From: a virus | Strand: one strand, 5' to 3' | Length of the DNA: 64,000 bases | IMG/VR virus record: IMGVR_UViG_3300005529_000029 | Location: 1-64,000 of that record | Shown here: positions 35,241 through 62,947 of the stretch, in pieces | Numbering within the stretch: position 1 is the first letter of the stretch | Layout of the letters: each line of letters starts with the position of its first letter | Notes under the pieces: generated by a model | What the model was told of the DNA's origin: nothing | What the model saw: the letters and a program-made list of their open reading frames with translations, nothing else | Database searches by the model: none | Translations under genes and position numbers: made by a program

Positions 35241-35252
35241 CGAATTTCTTTG
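35230..35252 (+). terminator. Intrinsic terminator overlapping a stop codon
   Basis: TTCGCT (35230-35235) and AGCGAA (35239-35244) form a 6-bp hairpin with loop ATT, followed by TTTCTTTG and later AATTTTTTATTT. The TAG at 35238-35240 lies in the loop. It ends the AraC-led operon. Confidence 0.6.
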
Positions 35253-35932
35253 TGCAATTTTTTATTTCCTGATTTTTCCACTCGCTTCATACGCATATTT
35301 TTGTTTTGGATATTTCGACAAGAGCGCTTATATGTGCCTGGCGCGCCAGCGCATTGCGACCCCCTTTAGCGAGCTAACGATCCACCCCTGGCACTAGCCT
35401 GGCGCGGGTTAGGTAGGGGAGCGTGTCAGGTAATCGGAGCTCGGTCGTATTAGGTAACTACCTGATACTGCGCGAGTTACGGTCATTTTGATACGTCACT
35501 TCGACTAATTCACTCAAAAATGTCGAATAGACACACAGATTTGTTACCTTCGGTGACGATTAACCAGAATCGGGTCAGTTCGACTCAAAACCGGTTAATT
35601 GACCGTCTTTAAACATATCCACTCGTCAGGTAATATCTTGATAAGTGTACATAATAAGACGTTTAGATACAGTAAGATAGGGATTATCTAGCGTAAGCTA
35701 TTACAAATAAAGCGTTTATCGTGACTTATGGCATGACGGTTGTATATAAGGTAGGTGACTCTAAACGAGTTCGGTCTCTGACAATCCATTACCTATAAAC
35801 CTGACTGTCTCATATTGTACGTCATTCTGACAGGAAAGACGGTCAGGTAATGACAGGTGACTGGGTTCGACCGTTCTTTGACAATCGAAGTACCACGACC
35901 GAAATCACATCTTAAGTATCGGAGATAATCAC
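35241..35932. promoter_or_regulatory. 690-bp noncoding control region with repeated motifs
   Basis: No coding frame is supported. GTCAGGTAAT occurs three times (35425-35434, 35625-35634, 35842-35851), AGGTAACTACCT forms a 12-bp palindrome near 35452, and CTGGCGCGCCAG is a palindrome at 35338-35349. TTGACA is at 35878-35883 but lacks a matching -10 box. GGAG at 35921 serves the next gene. The repeats look like operators or a replication/partition region. The role is not known. Confidence 0.55.
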
Positions 35933-36316: not shown

Positions 36317-36338
36317 TTAAACCTTAACATCGGTTAGC

Positions 36339-36366
36339 GGGTCCGGTTTGGTGTCCCGGACCCTTT
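36339..36366 (+). terminator. Intrinsic terminator
   Basis: GGGTCCGG (36339-36346) pairs with CCGGACCC (36356-36363) around a 9-base loop, followed by TTTGTCATTTT. It lies directly after the 127-aa gene, suggesting that gene is a separate, strongly transcribed unit. Confidence 0.7.
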
Positions 36367-36387
36367 GTCATTTTACAGGAGCGCGAC

Positions 36388-36555
36388 ATGGATACGTTAA
36401 CTCTTATCAATGGATACAATGAAGCAGCGAAGGTACTAGGCCAAGCAAAGATAGATGCCGTTCATGATGCCCAAGCAATTTATAGTCAGGTCTATCGAAT
36501 TGACGAGTATATAAATGGGCAGATCATGGCATTGCTTGCCGAGCTGAAAGGCTAA
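36388..36555 (+). CDS. Small hypothetical protein
   Basis: 55 aa, ATG preceded by ACAGGAG. Sequence starts MDTLTLINGYNEAAKVLG and is helical (DAQAIYSQVYRIDEYINGQI). It lies between two terminators with no overlap to other genes. Not recognised. Confidence 0.6.
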   Translation: MDTLTLINGYNEAAKVLGQAKIDAVHDAQAIYSQVYRIDEYINGQIMALLAELKG

Positions 36556-36577
36556 TGATTCCCATAGGCGAATGACC

Positions 36578-36610
36578 AAGGGGAGCGGGTTGCCACCGAC
36601 TCCCCTTTTC
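36578..36610 (+). terminator. Intrinsic terminator
   Basis: AAGGGGAG (36578-36585) pairs with CTCCCCTT (36600-36607), with an inner CGG/CCG pairing in the loop and a following TTC run. The rest of the gap to 36866 holds two tandem copies of GCGATGCCAG (36621-36640) and GC-rich sequence with no gene that I can support. Confidence 0.7.
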
Positions 36611-36866
36611 TTATGCCCAGGCGATGCCAGGCGATGCCAGGCGCGCAGCTAGAAGTGTACATTAAGCGAGCTGGATCCTGGCAGCATAGCGCGCCGGCGC
36701 AGCCTTGCCCGAGTAAGTAGCCAGGTGTACAGGCGCAGCCAGCTTGATCTTGCAGGCTATTCACGGCGCGCATTAAGCATTCATGGGCAAGCATAGATCT
36801 ACGAGCGCTAATCGAACCAAGGGCGCTTAGCAAATCATCAGGCAATACTTTAAGAAGGAGCAGCGA

Positions 36867-37331: not shown

Positions 37332-37412
37332 TTGACGCATCTCTACACGCTTGTGTATAGTTGCCAAAGTCCAGCAAAACAGCAATATCAACTCTACACA
37401 GCTTTGTATAGT
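37332..37412 (+). promoter_or_regulatory. Promoter with two 20-bp palindromic operators
   Basis: TTGACG (37332-37337) and TATAGT (37356-37361) form a sigma70-type promoter with an 18-base spacer. CTCTACACGCTTGTGTATAG (37341-37360) covers its -10 region, and CTCTACACAGCTTTGTATAG (37392-37411) lies nine bases before the next ATG. A third copy, CTCTACACAGCGATGTAGAG, lies inside that gene at 37620-37639. The arrangement is that of an autoregulated repressor. Confidence 0.65.
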
Positions 37413-37420
37413 TACGACCT

Positions 37421-37720
37421 ATGGAACGATTCTCAATTAAGCAGGCAGCAAGTAGGCTCGGCGTTATTCCTCGCCGCGTCTACCAGTTCATCGAACAGGG
37501 TAGGCTTGTCGCGCAAACTGATGAGTTCTCAGGCAAATTATTCATTACCGGCGATCAGCTTACCAAATTCAAGCGCCTGGATCGATCGCCAGGTAATCCC
37601 AATTTCAAGCAAAAGACATCTCTACACAGCGATGTAGAGTTAGACGCAGAGTCCACTGATACCGCGAGAACTTTTGAGCCTGATCCGGAAAGCAATTGGG
37701 CTCGCGCTTTTGACGATTAA
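37421..37720 (+). CDS. Helix-turn-helix regulator (MerR/excisionase fold)
   Basis: 99 aa. N-terminal winged helix-turn-helix: MERFSIKQAASRLGVIPRRV then YQFIEQGRLVAQ, like MerR/AlpA-type proteins; the C terminus is acidic and disordered. Three palindromic sites with a common CTCTACAC half lie in its promoter and coding sequence, so it probably represses itself. No ribosome site is visible before ATG. Alternative: an excisionase. Confidence 0.7.
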   Translation: MERFSIKQAASRLGVIPRRVYQFIEQGRLVAQTDEFSGKLFITGDQLTKFKRLDRSPGNPNFKQKTSLHSDVELDAESTDTARTFEPDPESNWARAFDD

Positions 37721-38160
37721 TAGGCAGCATAGAGATATGATTAAGCCATTTGATAGCAGCTAATTAGCTAAATATGACATTCGCTGTCATATTTGCAGCA
37801 GATGCGCGCGCGGCGGCTTGGGGCAAAGCGCAATTTTAAAAAGATCACGGGCGATTCTCAGGGTCAAATACCAGGTAAAAAAGGTCAACGCAGAACGATC
37901 TACGACTCATCGTACAACAAAATAGTGCACAATCATCCAATTGAGCCTTAATGACACAGGGAGCGGGTATATGAGCCATATAGAAACACGAGCGAAATAG
38001 GCTTATAGGTATATCCCTGACGTAAGGTAATCCTAAGGAATAAGGGCAGATAAAGGCTATTAGTCTGAGTTGATTTCATAAGCTAATCTATGTTAAAGTG
38101 TCCTCGGTTTTTGTGTACATTTAGGGACATTTACGGAGCTATAGAGCGGAGGGTAAAGCA
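37721..38160. other. 440-bp noncoding stretch with a perfect inverted repeat
   Basis: AAATATGACA (37770-37779) and TGTCATATTT (37785-37794) form a perfect 10-bp hairpin with loop TTCGC and no T run, an operator or mRNA-end structure. TGTGTACATTTA at about 38113 resembles other intergenic motifs in this phage. CGGAGGG lies before the next gene. No coding frame is supported. Confidence 0.5.
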
Positions 38161-38367
38161 ATGGCAGATCGGGATATGGATGCTCTCAACTTAAATGAGC
38201 CAGAAGAGGCAAGTCCGCGTGATCTGGCAAGTTTCTGCGGTTTAGAGGCTGGTAAATGCGTAAGGAATGGGTCTGCTGATAGTGCCAGGTACTACGCTCG
38301 ATGGGCAGCACATTATGGATTTGAGGCATTGCTCAAAGAAGAGAGGGATAATGATCATGGGTTATAG
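38161..38367 (+). CDS. Small hypothetical protein
   Basis: 68 aa with a CGGAGGG ribosome site. Acidic N terminus and an alanine/tyrosine helix (ADSARYYARWAAHYGFEALL). It overlaps the next gene's start. Unknown. Confidence 0.55.
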   Translation: MADRDMDALNLNEPEEASPRDLASFCGLEAGKCVRNGSADSARYYARWAAHYGFEALLKEERDNDHGL

Positions 38368-41397: not shown

Positions 41398-41643
41398 ATG
41401 ACCAAAGAACAAGAGATCGAGCAGGCAAGACGGCAATATGACGCTTTAGGGCAATCATGTGATCGATTGCTTCAGGCTCAGATCAAAGCTCAATCAACCG
41501 GCAACTGGCCTCTCTTCAAGAAGATCAGGGATGCTCACTCGCGAGTGGTCCAGCGCCGGCGCTACCTGAAGGTTCTAATAGAAGTTTTACCAGGAATCCA
41601 GGGACAAGAGCCAAATCCGCGTTCAAAGTCTTTTTGGCGTTAA
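41398..41643 (+). CDS. Small helical basic protein
   Basis: 81 aa. Fully helical with many basic residues (RDAHSRVVQRRRYLKVL). It is the last gene before the structured-RNA locus. Unknown. Confidence 0.5.
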   Translation: MTKEQEIEQARRQYDALGQSCDRLLQAQIKAQSTGNWPLFKKIRDAHSRVVQRRRYLKVLIEVLPGIQGQEPNPRSKSFWR

Positions 41644-41650
41644 AGCTGAC

Positions 41651-41679
41651 TTGATTTTGTAAACATTTAGTGATATATT
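41651..41679 (+). promoter_or_regulatory. Sigma70-type promoter of the structured RNA
   Basis: TTGATT (41651-41656) and TATATT (41674-41679) with a 17-base spacer. Expected start is about 41686, exactly at the first hairpin. The spacer contains TGTAAACATTT (41658-41668), a motif repeated in other intergenic regions and possibly an operator. Confidence 0.6.
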
Positions 41680-41685
41680 AAGACA

Positions 41686-42457
41686 ATACCGGACATTTAA
41701 GCTCTAGAGCCGGTATTCAGCCTCAAGTTCGATTTCGGCGGAGTTCCAATGACAGGCAATCAGCAAATACACACACAGAGATTGTCCTCTGATTACCTGC
41801 TGGGACTCCGCTCTGAGTTTCCCCTGGCGGGAAGGTCTATCCGAATCCATAAGCAAAGGAAAGGAGAGTGCGCATACAACCAGGTGGGCGCTATAGACTT
41901 CACCGATGTCCTGGGCATTTACGCGGAAAACTGCCGTAGTGGTTTCCCTGAGTCCAGATCGACATCTGCCGAGATGCGTCCTGAAATGGTTTCTGGAGCT
42001 GTGATGCTTGAAAACGTAGAGCATCGCCAAGGGTTCACAGGCATGAGGTCGGTTGCTCGACCGGTTTGTGAGAATCGTAAATCCCCGCGCTCCATGGCCA
42101 AATTTAATCCCATAAGACTTTGGGATCGCACAACACTCTTTGACAAAGTGCCGGAGCTGGAATCCAGAGAAGTACACGCTGAAGTCTTGTAAAAGACGAG
42201 TCAGCCTGGAAACACAGTGAAATCGGCCACGTCTCAGGAACAGAGCTCTTAAACTCACCTGAGGCCCATTTCGCCGTCATCGCGAACGGACACCGGAGAA
42301 AATAGTATCCGGGCCAAGCCGGTCTAACCACGGTAGCGATGAGTCGGGCGACGTATGCGATTTTTTCGTTGACCATGTGATTACGACAAAGCAAGTAGTC
42401 GACAGTTTGGCTTTATATGGGAGATCGGACTATCGAAGCGGTCTCCCATCTTTTTTT
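41686..42457 (+). ncRNA. Giant structured noncoding RNA, about 770 nt (candidate)
   Basis: A 730-bp gap between genes filled with local hairpins. AATACCGG/CCGGTATT (41685-41692/41710-41717). GCGGAGTTCC/GGGACTCCGC (41738-41747/41802-41811), enclosing CAGGCAATCAG/CTGATTACCTG (41753-41763/41789-41799). TTCCC/GGGAA at 41819-41833. GTGATGCT/AGCATCGC at 42001-42027. GGTCG/CGACC at 42047-42062. ATCCCA/TGGGAT at 42107-42126. Nested GCTGA/TCAGC and GTCTT/AAGAC at 42178-42205. GAAAT..GGCC..CTCAGG paired to CCTGAG-GGCC-ATTTC (42219-42238/42258-42272). CCGGA/TCCGG at 42293-42312. A promoter and a terminator frame it. The longest frame here (147 aa) has no plausible protein character. Size and density recall GOLLD/ROOL RNAs; family not identified. 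Confidence 0.75.
42419..42457 (+). terminator. Intrinsic terminator of the structured RNA
   Basis: GGGAGATCG (42419-42427) pairs with CGGTCTCCC (42439-42447), one G-U pair, loop of 11, followed by ATC and seven T. This separates the RNA from the following protein gene. Confidence 0.85.
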
Positions 42458-42523
42458 AATTTGCTTATGGATTTCGATAGACCGCACAAATCAAATTTCA
42501 ATGGAGTCAGGAGACAGACCACC

Positions 42524-42730
42524 ATGCAAAGAACCGGCAAGTATATATGTTATTTCCTACAGAGTGATACGAACAAAGAATTTGACTCGCTGCAGTTAGC
42601 ATTAGAGGCTGCGAGAAAATACGTGGGGAATGCTGCCTATACTAAACCATTCCCACACGAAGAAACATATTTGTTCGGTCCTGGCGATGGTACAACTAGC
42701 GTCACAGTCCGGGAAAAAATCATATTCTAA
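42524..42730 (+). CDS. Small hypothetical protein
   Basis: 68 aa. The start at 42524 (MQRTGKYICYFLQSD) is chosen because the upstream part of the same frame runs through the RNA terminator; CAGGAG lies before it. Alpha/beta pattern with a helix (SLQLALEAARKYVG). Unknown. Confidence 0.55.
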   Translation: MQRTGKYICYFLQSDTNKEFDSLQLALEAARKYVGNAAYTKPFPHEETYLFGPGDGTTSVTVREKIIF

Positions 42731-45088: not shown

Positions 45089-45967
45089 ATGAAACCTACA
45101 AAAACAAAGACTGCGCGAGCAACTAAAATAGCAAAGACGACAAAAAGAGCCTCAAAGCCTTCAGCGAAATCGAAAGCAGTGATACCTGCGGCCAAAACTC
45201 AGCCGATTACCCATGAAGAGATTTTAGGAACTTCAGTGACTACTGAGCAGGTCCAGGAGAAGGTTCTCGTATTACGCTCCTGCAAGGCTGATATGACCAG
45301 TTATGATGGCTTTAAGTGGCCAGAATCTGGTTTCGTAGAAGCGCCTGACTGGAAACCCACAAAGCAATGTGGAAATGGGCTTCATGGGTGGCAATGGGCT
45401 GTTGGTGATTTCCGGCTTGGATTCCATGACAGAGATACAAAGTGGCTAGTTATTGAGGTCGACAAGTCACAGATCGTTGAGCTTGACGGTAAGGTCAAAT
45501 TCAAGAATGGCAATGTTATTAAGGTTGGAAACTGGCATGATTGTTTTTGGTATGTGAGAACCCACACACCGAAGCCGGTTTTGGAGAAACCGGCGCCTGG
45601 TGACTACGCGCACTCTTCGACAACCGGTGACTACGCGCACTCTTCGACAACCGGTTACTACGCGCACTCTTCGACAACCGGTAACTACGCGCACTCTTCG
45701 ACAACCGGTTACTACGCGCACTCTTCGACAACCGGTGACTACGCGCACTCTTCGACAACCGGTAACTACGCGACCGCTTGTGCCCTTGGCACAAACTGCC
45801 GCGCAAAAGCAGGAGATAAAGGTTCGATCATCCTCACCTATTGGGATGATAAGGCGAATCGTTTTCGGCATGTCATTGGATACGTTGGCGAAGATGGAAT
45901 CGAAGCTAATACTTGGTACGAAATCCAAGATGGAAAACTTGGTAAATGTTCGCGCCAGGATTATTAA
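45089..45967 (+). CDS. DUF7666-like protein with nine-residue tandem repeats
   Basis: 292 aa. A basic, alanine-lysine N terminus (about 1-35) suggests nucleic-acid contact or disorder. Residues about 50-165 carry VLRSCKADMTSYDGFKWPES, KQCGNGLHGWQWAVGD and a GLHGW core matching what I recall as DUF7666. Then follow six copies of GDYAHSSTT (position 2 is D, Y or N), which fit a left-handed or pentapeptide-like beta solenoid, capped by a GDKGSIILTYWDD strand. Function unknown; solenoid phage proteins sometimes mimic DNA. The reverse frames across the repeats are artefacts. Confidence 0.65.
   Translation: MKPTKTKTARATKIAKTTKRASKPSAKSKAVIPAAKTQPITHEEILGTSVTTEQVQEKVLVLRSCKADMTSYDGFKWPESGFVEAPDWKPTKQCGNGLHGWQWAVGDFRLGFHDRDTKWLVIEVDKSQIVELDGKVKFKNGNVIKVGNWHDCFWYVRTHTPKPVLEKPAPGDYAHSSTTGDYAHSSTTGYYAHSSTTGNYAHSSTTGYYAHSSTTGDYAHSSTTGNYATACALGTNCRAKAGDKGSIILTYWDDKANRFRHVIGYVGEDGIEANTWYEIQDGKLGKCSRQDY
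45601..45762 (+). repeat. Six 27-bp in-frame tandem repeats
   Basis: Units start at 45601, 45628, 45655, 45682, 45709 and 45736 and differ only in the second codon base-one position (GAC, GAC, TAC, AAC, TAC, GAC). A partial seventh follows. Near-identity at DNA level, including third codon positions, points to recent expansion by slippage or recombination. Confidence 0.9.
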
Positions 45968-45982
45968 TCTCATTGCATTCCA

Positions 45983-46657
45983 ATGGACTGCCCTTTCTGC
46001 GGAGATGAGATTCTTACCGAAATAGAGATTGGCCCAGATCGAGAGTTTTATGCTCAGTTTTGTTGCTCTGAAGCCGAGAGCATCATGCATGAGATGGATC
46101 GTAAGACCTGGGCCAATATTCTTCGAGAATGTGCTGGCATCAAAATCCGTCAACCCTTTGATGCAGGTCTCACCTGGCAATTAGATTTCGGCCTCGAAAT
46201 CGTCACAGTCGAACAAAGAGACGCAAAAGACTTTATTCGGAAATGGCATAGGCATAATCCTCCTCCGGCTGGCTGGAAATTCGGTTTTGGAATAGCCAAT
46301 GGCGCCGATCTTATTGGAGTTTGCTGGGTAGGTCGTCCAGTCGCTCGAATGCTGGACCATAAGACAATCATCGAAGTTAATAGATTATGTGTTCGAGATG
46401 ATCTGCCAAAAGCTCTCACTTGGAATGCCTGTTCTCAGATGTATGGCGAGGCCGCGAGAAACGCCCAAGCAATGGGCTATCAGAAGATAATCACATATAC
46501 ACTGATTACTGAGGAAGGTACGGCATTAAAAGCTGCTGGCTGGCAGAAAGAGTTGGTTTCGAGTGGTGGCACTTGGGATCGGCCAAGTAGGTATAGAAAG
46601 CAGAAGTCACCGACAGTTCCTAAGATTCGCTGGGCAAAATATCTCGTTTCAGTTTAA
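45983..46657 (+). CDS. XF1762-family / GNAT-like phage protein with zinc knuckle
   Basis: 224 aa. CPFCGDEI near the start, with a later CC pair, may form a zinc finger. Residues about 78-205 fit the XF1762-type N-acetyltransferase-like family: AKDFIRKWHRHNPPPAGWKF, LIGVCWVGRPVARMLD, IEVNRLCVRDD, YTLITEEGTALKAAGW. These proteins occur in many phages; the acetyl acceptor is unknown. Confidence 0.75.
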   Translation: MDCPFCGDEILTEIEIGPDREFYAQFCCSEAESIMHEMDRKTWANILRECAGIKIRQPFDAGLTWQLDFGLEIVTVEQRDAKDFIRKWHRHNPPPAGWKFGFGIANGADLIGVCWVGRPVARMLDHKTIIEVNRLCVRDDLPKALTWNACSQMYGEAARNAQAMGYQKIITYTLITEEGTALKAAGWQKELVSSGGTWDRPSRYRKQKSPTVPKIRWAKYLVSV

Positions 46658-49405: not shown

Positions 49406-51049
49406 ATGTCGGCCATAATAGAAGTGCAAAAACCACAGCATAGGAAAGAACGAGCTAACCCGGACTGGCCGGTTAAGGTCTACTCATATTGGATTGAGCC
49501 AATAGGCGATATCCCGGAATGGTTTTGGTTATTCCATGATCATATGCAACTACTCTGGAACGATATGGTGATTGCGCATGATGCTTTTATTGACGAACGT
49601 GAATTCTCTGAAGAATCAGATGGGAAATGGGATACAGATCGTAAACGGCTTGAATTCTCTGGCCTACGTGAGAAGCTCAAGAATGTGGCCAAGTCTAAAA
49701 AGGGTATTCTTCCTAGCTCATGCTATTATGAGGTTAGGGATCGATTTCTCATCACGATGGGCAGATATTGGAATCCTGACTCCACACTAAAACGCAGACG
49801 AAACGAAACAAAGAATTTCGATCTTGGGCGACCTGGAATGAAATTTGGTCGCAATAAAGTACTCATCCCACATGATTTGAATGCTGCAAATATCTCAACG
49901 TCTATTCTCTTTTCTAATAAAAAACCTCTCACCATTTTGCAGCGCACAAAACAACAGGGGCCGACGCGAGGAATTTTTGAGACACTCGGTTATAACTTTA
50001 ACTTTCGCATCAATCTTCATCGGCCGATTCCAAATGGTAATATCAAGCGTATCGCTATTGTCGGGGAAATGGTTAAACCATTTGGATGGCAGTGGCGACT
50101 GAACCTGACCATTGAAGAGCCACCAGTAAGACCTCAAAGGAAGAATGGTAGGGTTGCAGCAATCGACCTTGGATGGCGTTTAATGGACGATTGTATTCGA
50201 ATAGGCGTGTTAGTTGATAACAGTGATAATGCTATTGAACTATCCATTCCGCTGGATTTTGCGAATAATTCGCTAAGACGTCAAAGAGAGCATTTCATGG
50301 ACGTGACCGATGCATGTCTTCCTATACATTCTATTCCAGACATCTGGAAAGCTCAACAGGAGTCAGACCTCATCTTAGAAGTCTGCAAAAATCGTCTAAC
50401 CGCTCTTATTCCTGAGCTTTTACCAAATAAGGTTGCATGGGATAAGGCTCGACATAAGAGTCTTATTAAGTTACTCAATACATTGCGGGAAGATCATCCA
50501 GAGAGTTCCGCAATTGCAGTTATAGAGCAGTGGCGTACGACAAACTGGGTTCTACATAGAAGATGGCGGGCAGCATATGAACGATTCATGAGATGGAGGC
50601 GTGAAATCTACAGAGTCCTGGCTGCGGAGATTGCTTCTACGTATGACGAGATCGTTTTAGAGGATCGTTTGAATCTAGCAGAGATGTCGAGAGACGAACA
50701 GGCACCACCAGCTATCAAAGCAAGTCAAAAATACCGACACTGGACATCGCTTTATCTCTTTAAAGAATGCTTAAAATATGCGATGGATAAACAGCAAAAA
50801 CTCATTATCGCGGGTAAAACTGCTTACTCAACAGCAACTTGCTCAACCTGTGATGGTAAGATTAATACCGATGCTTCACTCTATCTAACCTGTGCTAATG
50901 GGCATACCTTGGATCAGGATCTTAATGCAGCGCGAAACCTATTAAAATCATATCCAGAATGCGAGAGCCTCCCAGGGTTAGAGTCGCCGATTAGGCACTC
51001 GCAACTTTCTAAGTGCGTTAGGACGCTAAGTCTTTTAAAATCACTATAA
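49406..51049 (+). CDS. Compact Cas12 (type V)-like RNA-guided nuclease
   Basis: 547 aa with AAGGAG. The split RuvC is visible: AAIDLGW with Asp254, YDEIVLED with Glu419, and TLDQDLNAARNLL with Asp503/Asp505. A zinc ribbon is C479-STC482 ... C496-ANG-H500, with CxxxH replacing the usual second CxxC. Residues 1-250 hold beta/helical segments likely to bind guide RNA; a 165-residue gap from RuvC-I to RuvC-II carries a helical insertion (WRAAYERFMRWRREIYRVLA). By memory this is closest to compact Cas12m/V-U-like and viral effectors, not Cas12a. The adjacent array supports Cas rather than TnpB. All acidic positions intact, so cleavage is possible. No TnpA. Confidence 0.88.
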   Translation: MSAIIEVQKPQHRKERANPDWPVKVYSYWIEPIGDIPEWFWLFHDHMQLLWNDMVIAHDAFIDEREFSEESDGKWDTDRKRLEFSGLREKLKNVAKSKKGILPSSCYYEVRDRFLITMGRYWNPDSTLKRRRNETKNFDLGRPGMKFGRNKVLIPHDLNAANISTSILFSNKKPLTILQRTKQQGPTRGIFETLGYNFNFRINLHRPIPNGNIKRIAIVGEMVKPFGWQWRLNLTIEEPPVRPQRKNGRVAAIDLGWRLMDDCIRIGVLVDNSDNAIELSIPLDFANNSLRRQREHFMDVTDACLPIHSIPDIWKAQQESDLILEVCKNRLTALIPELLPNKVAWDKARHKSLIKLLNTLREDHPESSAIAVIEQWRTTNWVLHRRWRAAYERFMRWRREIYRVLAAEIASTYDEIVLEDRLNLAEMSRDEQAPPAIKASQKYRHWTSLYLFKECLKYAMDKQQKLIIAGKTAYSTATCSTCDGKINTDASLYLTCANGHTLDQDLNAARNLLKSYPECESLPGLESPIRHSQLSKCVRTLSLLKSL

Positions 51050-51058
51050 ATTGCCGCT

Positions 51059-51289
51059 GTGACAACTCTTGCTCAACCGAGTCTCGGTTGAGACACTGCG
51101 CTGCCAATTCCTTGGCGGAAAGCTCAAAAAGTGACAACTCTTGCTCAACCGAGTCTCGGTTGAGACGTCTTGCCTCTGCTTCTCTCCTCGAGCCTTTCAC
51201 TGGTGACAACTCTTGCTCAACCGAGTCTCGGTTGAGACAGCGGAGGACGCGAGCGACAGCCTACCCTAATCCGCGTGACAACTCTTGCT
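51059..51289 (+). CRISPR. CRISPR array, four repeats (last truncated), three spacers
   Basis: Repeats at 51059-51094, 51131-51166, 51203-51238 are identical 36-mers starting GTGACAACTCTTG and ending in a hairpin CTCAACCGA-GTC-TCGGTTGAG then AC. A fourth (51275-51289) keeps only the first 15 bases. Spacers 51095-51130, 51167-51202 and 51239-51274 are each 36 nt and unrelated. The degenerate end repeat and 3' hairpin imply transcription rightward, from the effector side, with a 5' repeat-derived handle as in Cas12a/Cas-phi-type crRNA. The array starts 9 bases after the effector stop. No leader or anti-repeat is seen. Confidence 0.95.
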
Positions 51290-51363
51290 GAATTTTATTA
51301 ATGAATATATAATTCTGCTGGTTATCATTGGGTTATCTTTTTGAACGAGAGTTTGACGGACCT

Positions 51364-58895: not shown

Positions 58896-59209
58896 GTAAT
58901 ACCCTCTTCATCCTGAGCTTAGGTTTTTTGTTTTTTAACTCTACGCCTGCTGGGGAGTTTTCACTCCTTGGAGTGTCATTTTATAGCGATTCCACGTCAT
59001 AATGCAAGCATATGTAAACATTTTGTCATCTCTACGCTTACATCTTGTTTATTTCAAGCATTTAGCTTTATTTCACTCTAAATAGGTCTTTACAGTTTAG
59101 TCCTCATAAATTATTCTGTAAACATATAAATGAATGCAGCTACATTTGCAGTAAGGTTAATTAAACAGAATCGGAAAAAGCCACCCGAGAGATTAGAAAG
59201 GCGGTCTAT
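58896..59209. promoter_or_regulatory. Divergent switch region
   Basis: 314 bp with no supported gene. CACTCC-TT-GGAGTG lies at 58962-58975, with another GGAGT...ACTCC arm just upstream (GGAGT at 58954), giving tandem half-sites as used by RHH repressors. TGTAAACATTT (59013-59023) and TGTAAACATAT (59117-59127) recur elsewhere. TTTACA and TATTCT near 59090-59116 could form the rightward promoter. Confidence 0.55.
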
Positions 59210-61463: not shown

Positions 61464-62237
61464 ATGTCATTATTGCCTGCGCAAGAAATTGCGTCTGAAT
61501 CTTTCTCTGAGCTTTCACCGGAGTTCACTGCAAATGGACTTGCCAGAGAGTTCGAGAGTGATTCCTTAACTGAGACTCAGATTAGTCGCCTGCTAAATGG
61601 TTTCGAGCAGGCGACTAACGTTATCGATCTAATCATCCCTCTGGTTCCAAGGATCAAGAATACTGAGCATGTCAGTTACTTACGCGATGCTTCTGATAAG
61701 TTAGGTGAAAAGTCCTGGCGTTTAAAGATCGCCTGTGATTCCGAGCTTATTCACCGAGCTGAGGCCAAACGTGGCCGAGGCCACAAAGACCTCGATGGTA
61801 TTGGTGTCGTCGCTCAGGTTAGGAAACTGGCATACGAAAAAGGCGTTTCAGCACGTCAGATATTCCTCAATGATCAGATCCACAAAACATTCTTCAAAGA
61901 ACCCGACGAAAATATTGAAAGCGCAGCCACCACTTTAGGACCGACTTTTTTCAGGATCGCTCTCTCTGCTGAGGATCCAAAGACAGCAATTAAGGTCTTT
62001 GCCAAACAGAAAGATGACAATCCTTTCTTTAGCACCCGCGATGCTGAAGTGATGGTGGGTAAAAAACCTTTCAGACGGGTCGACTTTGAGAGAGTTGAAC
62101 ATTTAATTCAAGCAGGTCAAGCAGTGGTTGACATTTGGCAAACACACTTCGCCGACCTCGAGGATGATCCCGAAATCCGTAGCGCGTTTAATGAACTTGA
62201 GAAGGAAATCAAATCGTTTAACGAGGGTAATGTATGA
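61464..62237 (+). CDS. Hypothetical replication-region protein
   Basis: 257 aa. Helical (SYLRDASDKLGEKSWRLKIA; RKLAYEKGVSARQIFLNDQI), with a KRGRGHKDLDGIGVVAQV basic linker. The order with neighbours suggests replication or recombination, but I recognise no family. Four-base overlap with the next gene. Confidence 0.55.
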   Translation: MSLLPAQEIASESFSELSPEFTANGLAREFESDSLTETQISRLLNGFEQATNVIDLIIPLVPRIKNTEHVSYLRDASDKLGEKSWRLKIACDSELIHRAEAKRGRGHKDLDGIGVVAQVRKLAYEKGVSARQIFLNDQIHKTFFKEPDENIESAATTLGPTFFRIALSAEDPKTAIKVFAKQKDDNPFFSTRDAEVMVGKKPFRRVDFERVEHLIQAGQAVVDIWQTHFADLEDDPEIRSAFNELEKEIKSFNEGNV

Positions 62238-62947
62238 TTTGGCCAACATTAGATACGCCTGCACCGCCACTATCAGATACGTTTATTAGTGATATTGATA
62301 CCGAGGTAAAACATTTGCATCAATATTGTTATGATCATTATAACCTTTTAGCAGATCCGCTTTGGAATGACGCTGAATTCCCAAGCGATGGTAGTCCTAT
62401 TCCATACAGAAATAATGCCATCCGATATCCCCTTGGTCCTAATACTGAAGCCTATTGGCGAGAATATACGATTACTGATACCGACACTGGAACATATTTA
62501 GCAGGCATATGCCATTATCCAGTTGATCGTGATGAAGCGATCCAGGTAATTGCCAGCCTGATATACACGCTGAAAACCTCTTACGGCGATGAATATTCAT
62601 TCTCGATTCTGGAGCTCATTAAAGAATATGAGGCAATATCTCATCTAAGCGAGATTCTTTATCAGCCTTGTGATAATCAAGCTGGTGCCCATCTAGCAGG
62701 TTATATCTACCTCCTAGAAGCCGAAGAGACGGGATCTTATAAGATTGGTCGTGCAAAGGACCTAGACAACCGCATTAAAACATTTGAGGTAAAACTGCCA
62801 TTTGAAACCGAACTGCGCCATTCAATCAAAGTTCAAGACATGGCCTGTGCGGAGTTGGCTCTTCACAAAAAGTTTGCAGGTCGCCGTATAAATGGCGAGT
62901 GGTTCAAATTAACTCCTGAAGACGTTTCCTGGATTTGTTCATTATAG
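62234..62947 (+). CDS. GIY-YIG / T5orf172-type nuclease-domain protein
   Basis: 237 aa. C-terminal domain at about 155-237: GYIYLLEAEETGSYKIGRAK (GIY-YIG-type strand pair; YIYLL and YKIGRA), DLDNRIKTFEVKLPFETELR, ELALHKKFAGRRINGEWFKL. This is the T5orf172 pattern with a late Glu. The N-terminal 150 residues are unassigned. It may cleave DNA or act in replication control. Overlaps its neighbour (ATGA). Confidence 0.75.
   Translation: MIWPTLDTPAPPLSDTFISDIDTEVKHLHQYCYDHYNLLADPLWNDAEFPSDGSPIPYRNNAIRYPLGPNTEAYWREYTITDTDTGTYLAGICHYPVDRDEAIQVIASLIYTLKTSYGDEYSFSILELIKEYEAISHLSEILYQPCDNQAGAHLAGYIYLLEAEETGSYKIGRAKDLDNRIKTFEVKLPFETELRHSIKVQDMACAELALHKKFAGRRINGEWFKLTPEDVSWICSL

Follow-up and report, generated by a model that had tools for sequence, protein, structure and literature searches.

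To our knowledge, phages have few large structured RNAs; two of these form cages without protein, and none has been assigned a function. GOLLD and ROOL (Rumen-Originating, Ornate, Large) often lie near tRNA islands or phage tRNA genes, and their multimers involve symmetric palindromic kissing loops (PMC12286853). The interval described here (41685-42498) is non-coding, folds better than its shuffles and can form a potential 26-pair helix. An earlier reading made from the sequence only had proposed a giant structured RNA; a large folded unit that is non-coding and has plausible signals for expression is upheld, but its assignment to GOLLD or ROOL is not. If true, an independent example in a probable Acidobacteria phage would point to repeated invention of such RNAs among phages.

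Genome setting and coding content

The window, a stretch of 64,000 nucleotides, is part of the 75,239-base IMG/VR virus record IMGVR_UViG_3300005529_000029. The terminase is 46-52% identical to terminases of contigs from Acidobacteria MAGs (Terriglobia, Bryobacterales), which suggests an acidobacterial host, and on this similarity the phage probably infects Acidobacteria. In the stretches read of prophage contigs of Acidobacteria, the terminase is the only protein in common with the phage. Genes run mostly leftward (structural) to ~32.8 kb and rightward from 33 kb, and the interval sits in the rightward block, flanked by two small genes to which no function is assigned. The GC skew changes near 32 kb, where the gene direction switches, and has no origin-like turn at 41-42 kb; a replication origin was rejected on the latter result. 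No tRNA gene was found by ARAGORN in the window or in the rest of the 75-kb record. The reading frames in and around the interval are as follows.

Ending at 41643: small upstream gene or frame, before the unit
41749-42192, + strand: open frame of 147 aa, codon score -0.11 per codon
41704-42258, - strand: open frame of 184 aa, codon score -0.21 per codon
42524-42730, + strand: next gene, 68 aa, directly 3' of the unit (AGGAG at 42509-42513, ATG at 42524)

The codon score was trained on the phage's own genes, which average 0.167 +/- 0.078 against an out-of-frame null of -0.185 +/- 0.098, and by this measure the next gene is coding-like (0.125). Neither long frame inside the interval has a coding score or matches a PHROG or Pfam family, and a search of viral contigs with the 147-aa frame returned no homologue. 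By codon score and family search the interval is non-coding, in agreement with the earlier statement that it holds no credible protein. A group I or II self-splicing intron was also rejected, as there is no Rfam match, the upstream frame stops at 41643, ahead of the unit, and the gene that follows carries an AGGAG and ATG of its own.

Several other features of the same phage were recorded. A second long interval (35241-35932), in which no open frame reaches 60 aa, has a folding z of -5.1 on the + strand and only -1.6 on the - strand, a stronger strand bias than that of 41685-42498. It holds the only three exact TCAGGTAAT motifs of the window and a 16-nt long-range inverted repeat (arms 35595-35610 and 35835-35850), and it has no Rfam match. 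A miniature type V effector of 547 aa (49406-51049; PADLOC Cas12u1 E 3.7e-33, Cas12f 1.3e-30), in whose translation candidate RuvC acidic residues and a zinc ribbon were read by eye, is directly followed by a CRISPR array (51059-51292) of three 36-37-nt repeats and a degenerate fourth at 72-nt spacing. Its three spacers of ~35 nt gave no convincing target in the same phage or in known phages. This second interval and the CRISPR system of type V (49406-51292) may hold at least as much interest as 41685-42498. At 37338-37642 a short frame is flanked by three copies of a 26-nt repeat that look like operator sites and that all contain an internal inverted repeat (CTCTACACAGCTTTGTATAG type). In a DUF7666 protein (45089-45967) a 27-bp unit (YAHSSTTGD repeats) is present in 6.4 tandem copies, and the protein is a candidate for length variation, and a T5orf172/MUG113 domain protein of GIY-YIG type is encoded at 62234-62947. 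Finally, a Mom-like DNA modification protein (45983-46657, PHROG 1384) and an N4/N6 DNA methylase (G000 64764-66242; L098 1264-2742) suggest that the phage DNA is probably modified.

Putative expression signals, hairpins and the potential closing stalk

The features of the unit, from its upstream signal to its last predicted helix, are:

41651-41679, + strand: promoter-like site, TTGATT-17 nt-TATATT with an extended -10 TG, 9 of 12 consensus bases
41658-41668, + strand: operator-like motif TGTAAACATTT, inside the promoter spacer
41685-41717, + strand: hairpin P1 (AAUACCGG/CCGGUAUU), pair probability 0.91, z -3.1
41737-41812, + strand: long hairpin P3, 76 nt, 12 pairs and two more helices
41834-41862, + strand: 5' arm of the stalk, 25 of 29 positions complementary to 42455-42483 (26 of 29 with one G-U)
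41863-42416, + strand: interior, predicted to be multi-branched, with predicted stems P5 (41987-42100), P7 (42150-42227), P8 (42231-42265) and P9 (42277-42342)
42417-42457, + strand: terminator-like hairpin of 11 pairs with an 11-nt loop, then CTTTTTTT; z -3.8
42455-42483, + strand: 3' arm of the stalk, downstream of the T-run and just before the next gene
42488-42498, + strand: weak outermost helix, predicted partner 41725-41735 in the minimum-energy fold

The 17-spaced promoter that the sequence-only reading had placed against the first hairpin was recovered. The promoter-like site lies 6 nt upstream of P1, and the expected start falls near 41685, the first base of that hairpin. Because 1-2 sites of this quality are expected by chance (1.4 in the scanned 1.3 kb), the site is supported by its position, not by its sequence. 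The operator-like motif, described before as shared, does recur: TGTAAACATTT is exact at 41658 and 59013 and has one mismatch at 59117, all three intergenic and on the + strand. Its total count, however, was reached by 4 of 100 shuffles. The hairpin and T-run at the 3' end likewise exist, but with 11 pairs (arms 42417-42427 and 42439-42449, then C and seven T) and not the nine first counted; the terminator scanner, with a loop limit of 8, skipped this 11-nt-loop hairpin at 42417.

The stalk was overlooked by the sequence-only reading and extends the unit past the supposed terminator to 41685-42498. Its inverted repeat scores 18, relative to a shuffle mean of 9.2 and maximum of 14 (0 of 400 shuffles reach it), and ties for the top score of the window with the CRISPR repeats, its sole equal. 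The potential 26-pair helix between 41834-41862 and 42455-42483 encloses a domain of ~600 nt, and a competing local pairing of 41833-41839 with 41894-41900 has a probability of 0.76. The interval as first drawn (41685-42457) folds with a z of -2.96, compared with -4.2 for 41685-42525 (20 shuffles), -5.1 and -4.2 for 41685-42498 (60 and 12 shuffles, respectively) and -6.0 for the stalk-bounded domain. The energy of 41685-42498 (-287.6) is the lowest of 38 windows of 814 nt sampled at 33-63 kb, the next being -271. In support of the unit, TpA is depleted in the interval (0.64) relative to three further long gaps of this early region (~1.06), though the whole window has 0.68.

The strongest local structure is P3 (-30.8 kcal/mol, z -5.2), which none of 200 shuffles equals. 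In contrast, the interior (41863-42416), taken without stalk and terminator, folds with a z of only -1.7, and 200-nt windows have a mean z of -1.2. The earlier count of at least ten local stems holds as a prediction, weak on its own, and the stem count was rejected as proof of an RNA. Palindromic loops cap P1 (41702-41709, CUCUAGAG) and P8 (42242-42249, AGAGCUCU) and are partly complementary to each other. As an equally good loop pair arose in 128 of 500 shuffles, a P1-P8 kissing interaction was rejected as evidence and is kept as a lead; over all loop pairs, complementarity is not above chance. Both strands of the unit fold about equally well (z -5.1 on + and -5.25 on -), so the signal is not specific to a + strand RNA, and a DNA-level element keeps some weight. 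The + strand has the lower positional entropy (0.84 vs 1.00 bits), and the presence of structure on both sides of the stalk, with P1 and P3 outside it, speaks for a single large RNA rather than a simple inserted element.

Explanations of the folded unit

The unit is real, non-coding and structured, has a significant closing stalk and is a good candidate orphan large RNA. The best explanation, held tentatively at a probability of about 0.45, is that 41685-42498 is an orphan, stalk-enclosed large structured RNA of the phage's rightward operon. Transcription would start near 41685, some transcripts would stop at the T-run and those that read through would form the stalk. Because the 3' arm extends beyond the T-run, a transcript ending at 42457 cannot form the stalk; in stopped transcripts 41833-41839 would instead pair locally with 41894-41900, and with this competing partner for the 5' arm, transcripts that stop and those that read through may fold differently. 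A 26-pair helix is of the kind cut by RNase III. On the length of the helix alone, we infer that a double-strand RNase of the RNase III type could cut the stalk, as modelled on pre-rRNA processing, which would free the folded domain and give the downstream mRNA a new 5' end. The freed RNA could be a structured scaffold or a binding RNA, the default guess for large structured RNAs. A more ambitious form of this proposal, a new class of large phage RNA apart from GOLLD, ROOL and OLE that is cut at the stalk and self-assembles through the P1 CUCUAGAG and P8 AGAGCUCU loops, has a slim chance of being correct. The stalk offers a concrete handle on the existence and production of the RNA, which, lacking homologues, is still a candidate.

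A very long leader or attenuator that acts in cis on the small genes downstream, with no free functional RNA, is unlikely overall but deserves serious weight. In such a leader, the T-run hairpin would stop most transcripts and the stalk would control read-through, stability or access to AGGAG. The unit extends as far as the next gene's ribosome-binding site (AGGAG 42509, ATG 42524), the search for a promoter-like site between the unit and that gene (42524) found none, the terminator-like hairpin is in place and 41833-41839 has both a local and a long-range pairing, all of which suit a leader. However, 814 nt is very long for one, the stalk leaves both AGGAG and the start codon uncovered, and its 3' arm is made only past the terminator, so that it cannot act as a usual antiterminator; the short genes downstream, of unknown function, suggest no regulated pathway.

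Less probable is a DNA-level element, in which the 29-bp inverted repeats would be the MITE-like termini of an inserted mobile element, or pairs of sites for protein binding or recombination, with RNA folding as a by-product. Imperfect identity of 25/29 is typical of terminal inverted repeats. Here such repeats bound a 650-bp block, consistent with this explanation, as is the equal folding of the two strands. Yet there is no target-site duplication (the 20-nt flanks share no 5-mer), no further copy of the repeat core AATCCATAAGCAAA in the 75-kb record, no transposase gene inside and no origin-like skew turn at 41-42 kb, and strong structure is also present outside the repeats (P3, z -5.2). Rather improbable as well is intergenic sequence without function, or the remains of a decayed gene, in which the hairpins would be fortuitous. 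The interior z of only -1.7 and the failure to find a conserved relative in the collections searched agree with it, and other long gaps without excess structure exist nearby (36317-36866 and 37638-38266), but shuffled sequences come nowhere near the stalk or P3 and a useless gap of 800 nt would be unusual in a closely packed phage operon.

Homologue searches and comparison with known systems

Rfam covariance searches for GOLLD, ROOL and other families, as the earlier reading had proposed, matched no family: at the gathering threshold there is no GOLLD, ROOL, OLE, intron or other hit, and with permissive filters and E up to 5 over 921 bases there is still no GOLLD or ROOL match. A mir-2253 match (E 3.2) was set aside as chance. 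The suggestion that the unit belongs to GOLLD or ROOL is not supported, given these results and a 75-kb record free of tRNA genes. A highly diverged member of either, already disfavoured, is very improbable: its ~800 nt, phage origin, several nested stems and palindromic loops resembling the symmetric kissing loops of GOLLD and ROOL (PMC12286853) are offset by the lack of an Rfam match, of tRNA genes and of loop complementarity above chance.

No homologue of the interval was found in scans of viral contigs and genomes or in BLAST and model searches spanning ~800 genomes and records, a set that may not include near relatives of this record. Blastn against phages and plasmids returned none, and against 50 viral records with related terminases the best match was 29 nt in a coding-looking region with dissimilar surroundings. 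Searches of viral contigs with the neighbouring proteins reached no homologous interval, three 14-15-nt junction or loop motifs gave no match there that extends into similar or structured surroundings, and terminase relatives in viral contigs and genomes held no homologue. Eight related host genomes contained none, and the class to which the best Bryobacterales match belongs, searched in 399 genomes, gave two matches that fall within long open frames and fail to extend. A covariance model built on the P5 domain found no homologue in 299 genomes and 42 viral records. As this single-sequence model is insensitive, the negatives are weak. With no homologue there is no covariation, which was counted against the RNA reading.

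Compared with the insertion-sequence or MITE type of terminal inverted repeat, the unit is similar in its 29-bp imperfect repeats around a 650-bp non-coding block and different in its lack of a target-site duplication or further copies and in the strong structure outside the repeats. With ROOL it shares a phage or prophage origin, large size and non-coding character, but not an Rfam match or a tRNA island, and known ROOL members are shorter (about 580 nt). The wider comparison with large phage RNAs of the GOLLD kind, which are marked by covarying stems and a conserved 3' region, is similar: the unit is phage-borne, ~800 nt long and non-coding with many predicted stems, whereas it has no Rfam match, tRNA neighbours or covariation support and its 26-pair stalk runs past the terminator-like hairpin. 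The RNase III processing stalks of precursor rRNAs offer a works-like comparison only, as the unit has no rRNA homology and its cleavage is a proposal; in both, a long helix joins the ends of a large folded RNA, and the unit, like a pre-rRNA stalk, would adjoin a co-transcribed RNA, here the proposed downstream mRNA.
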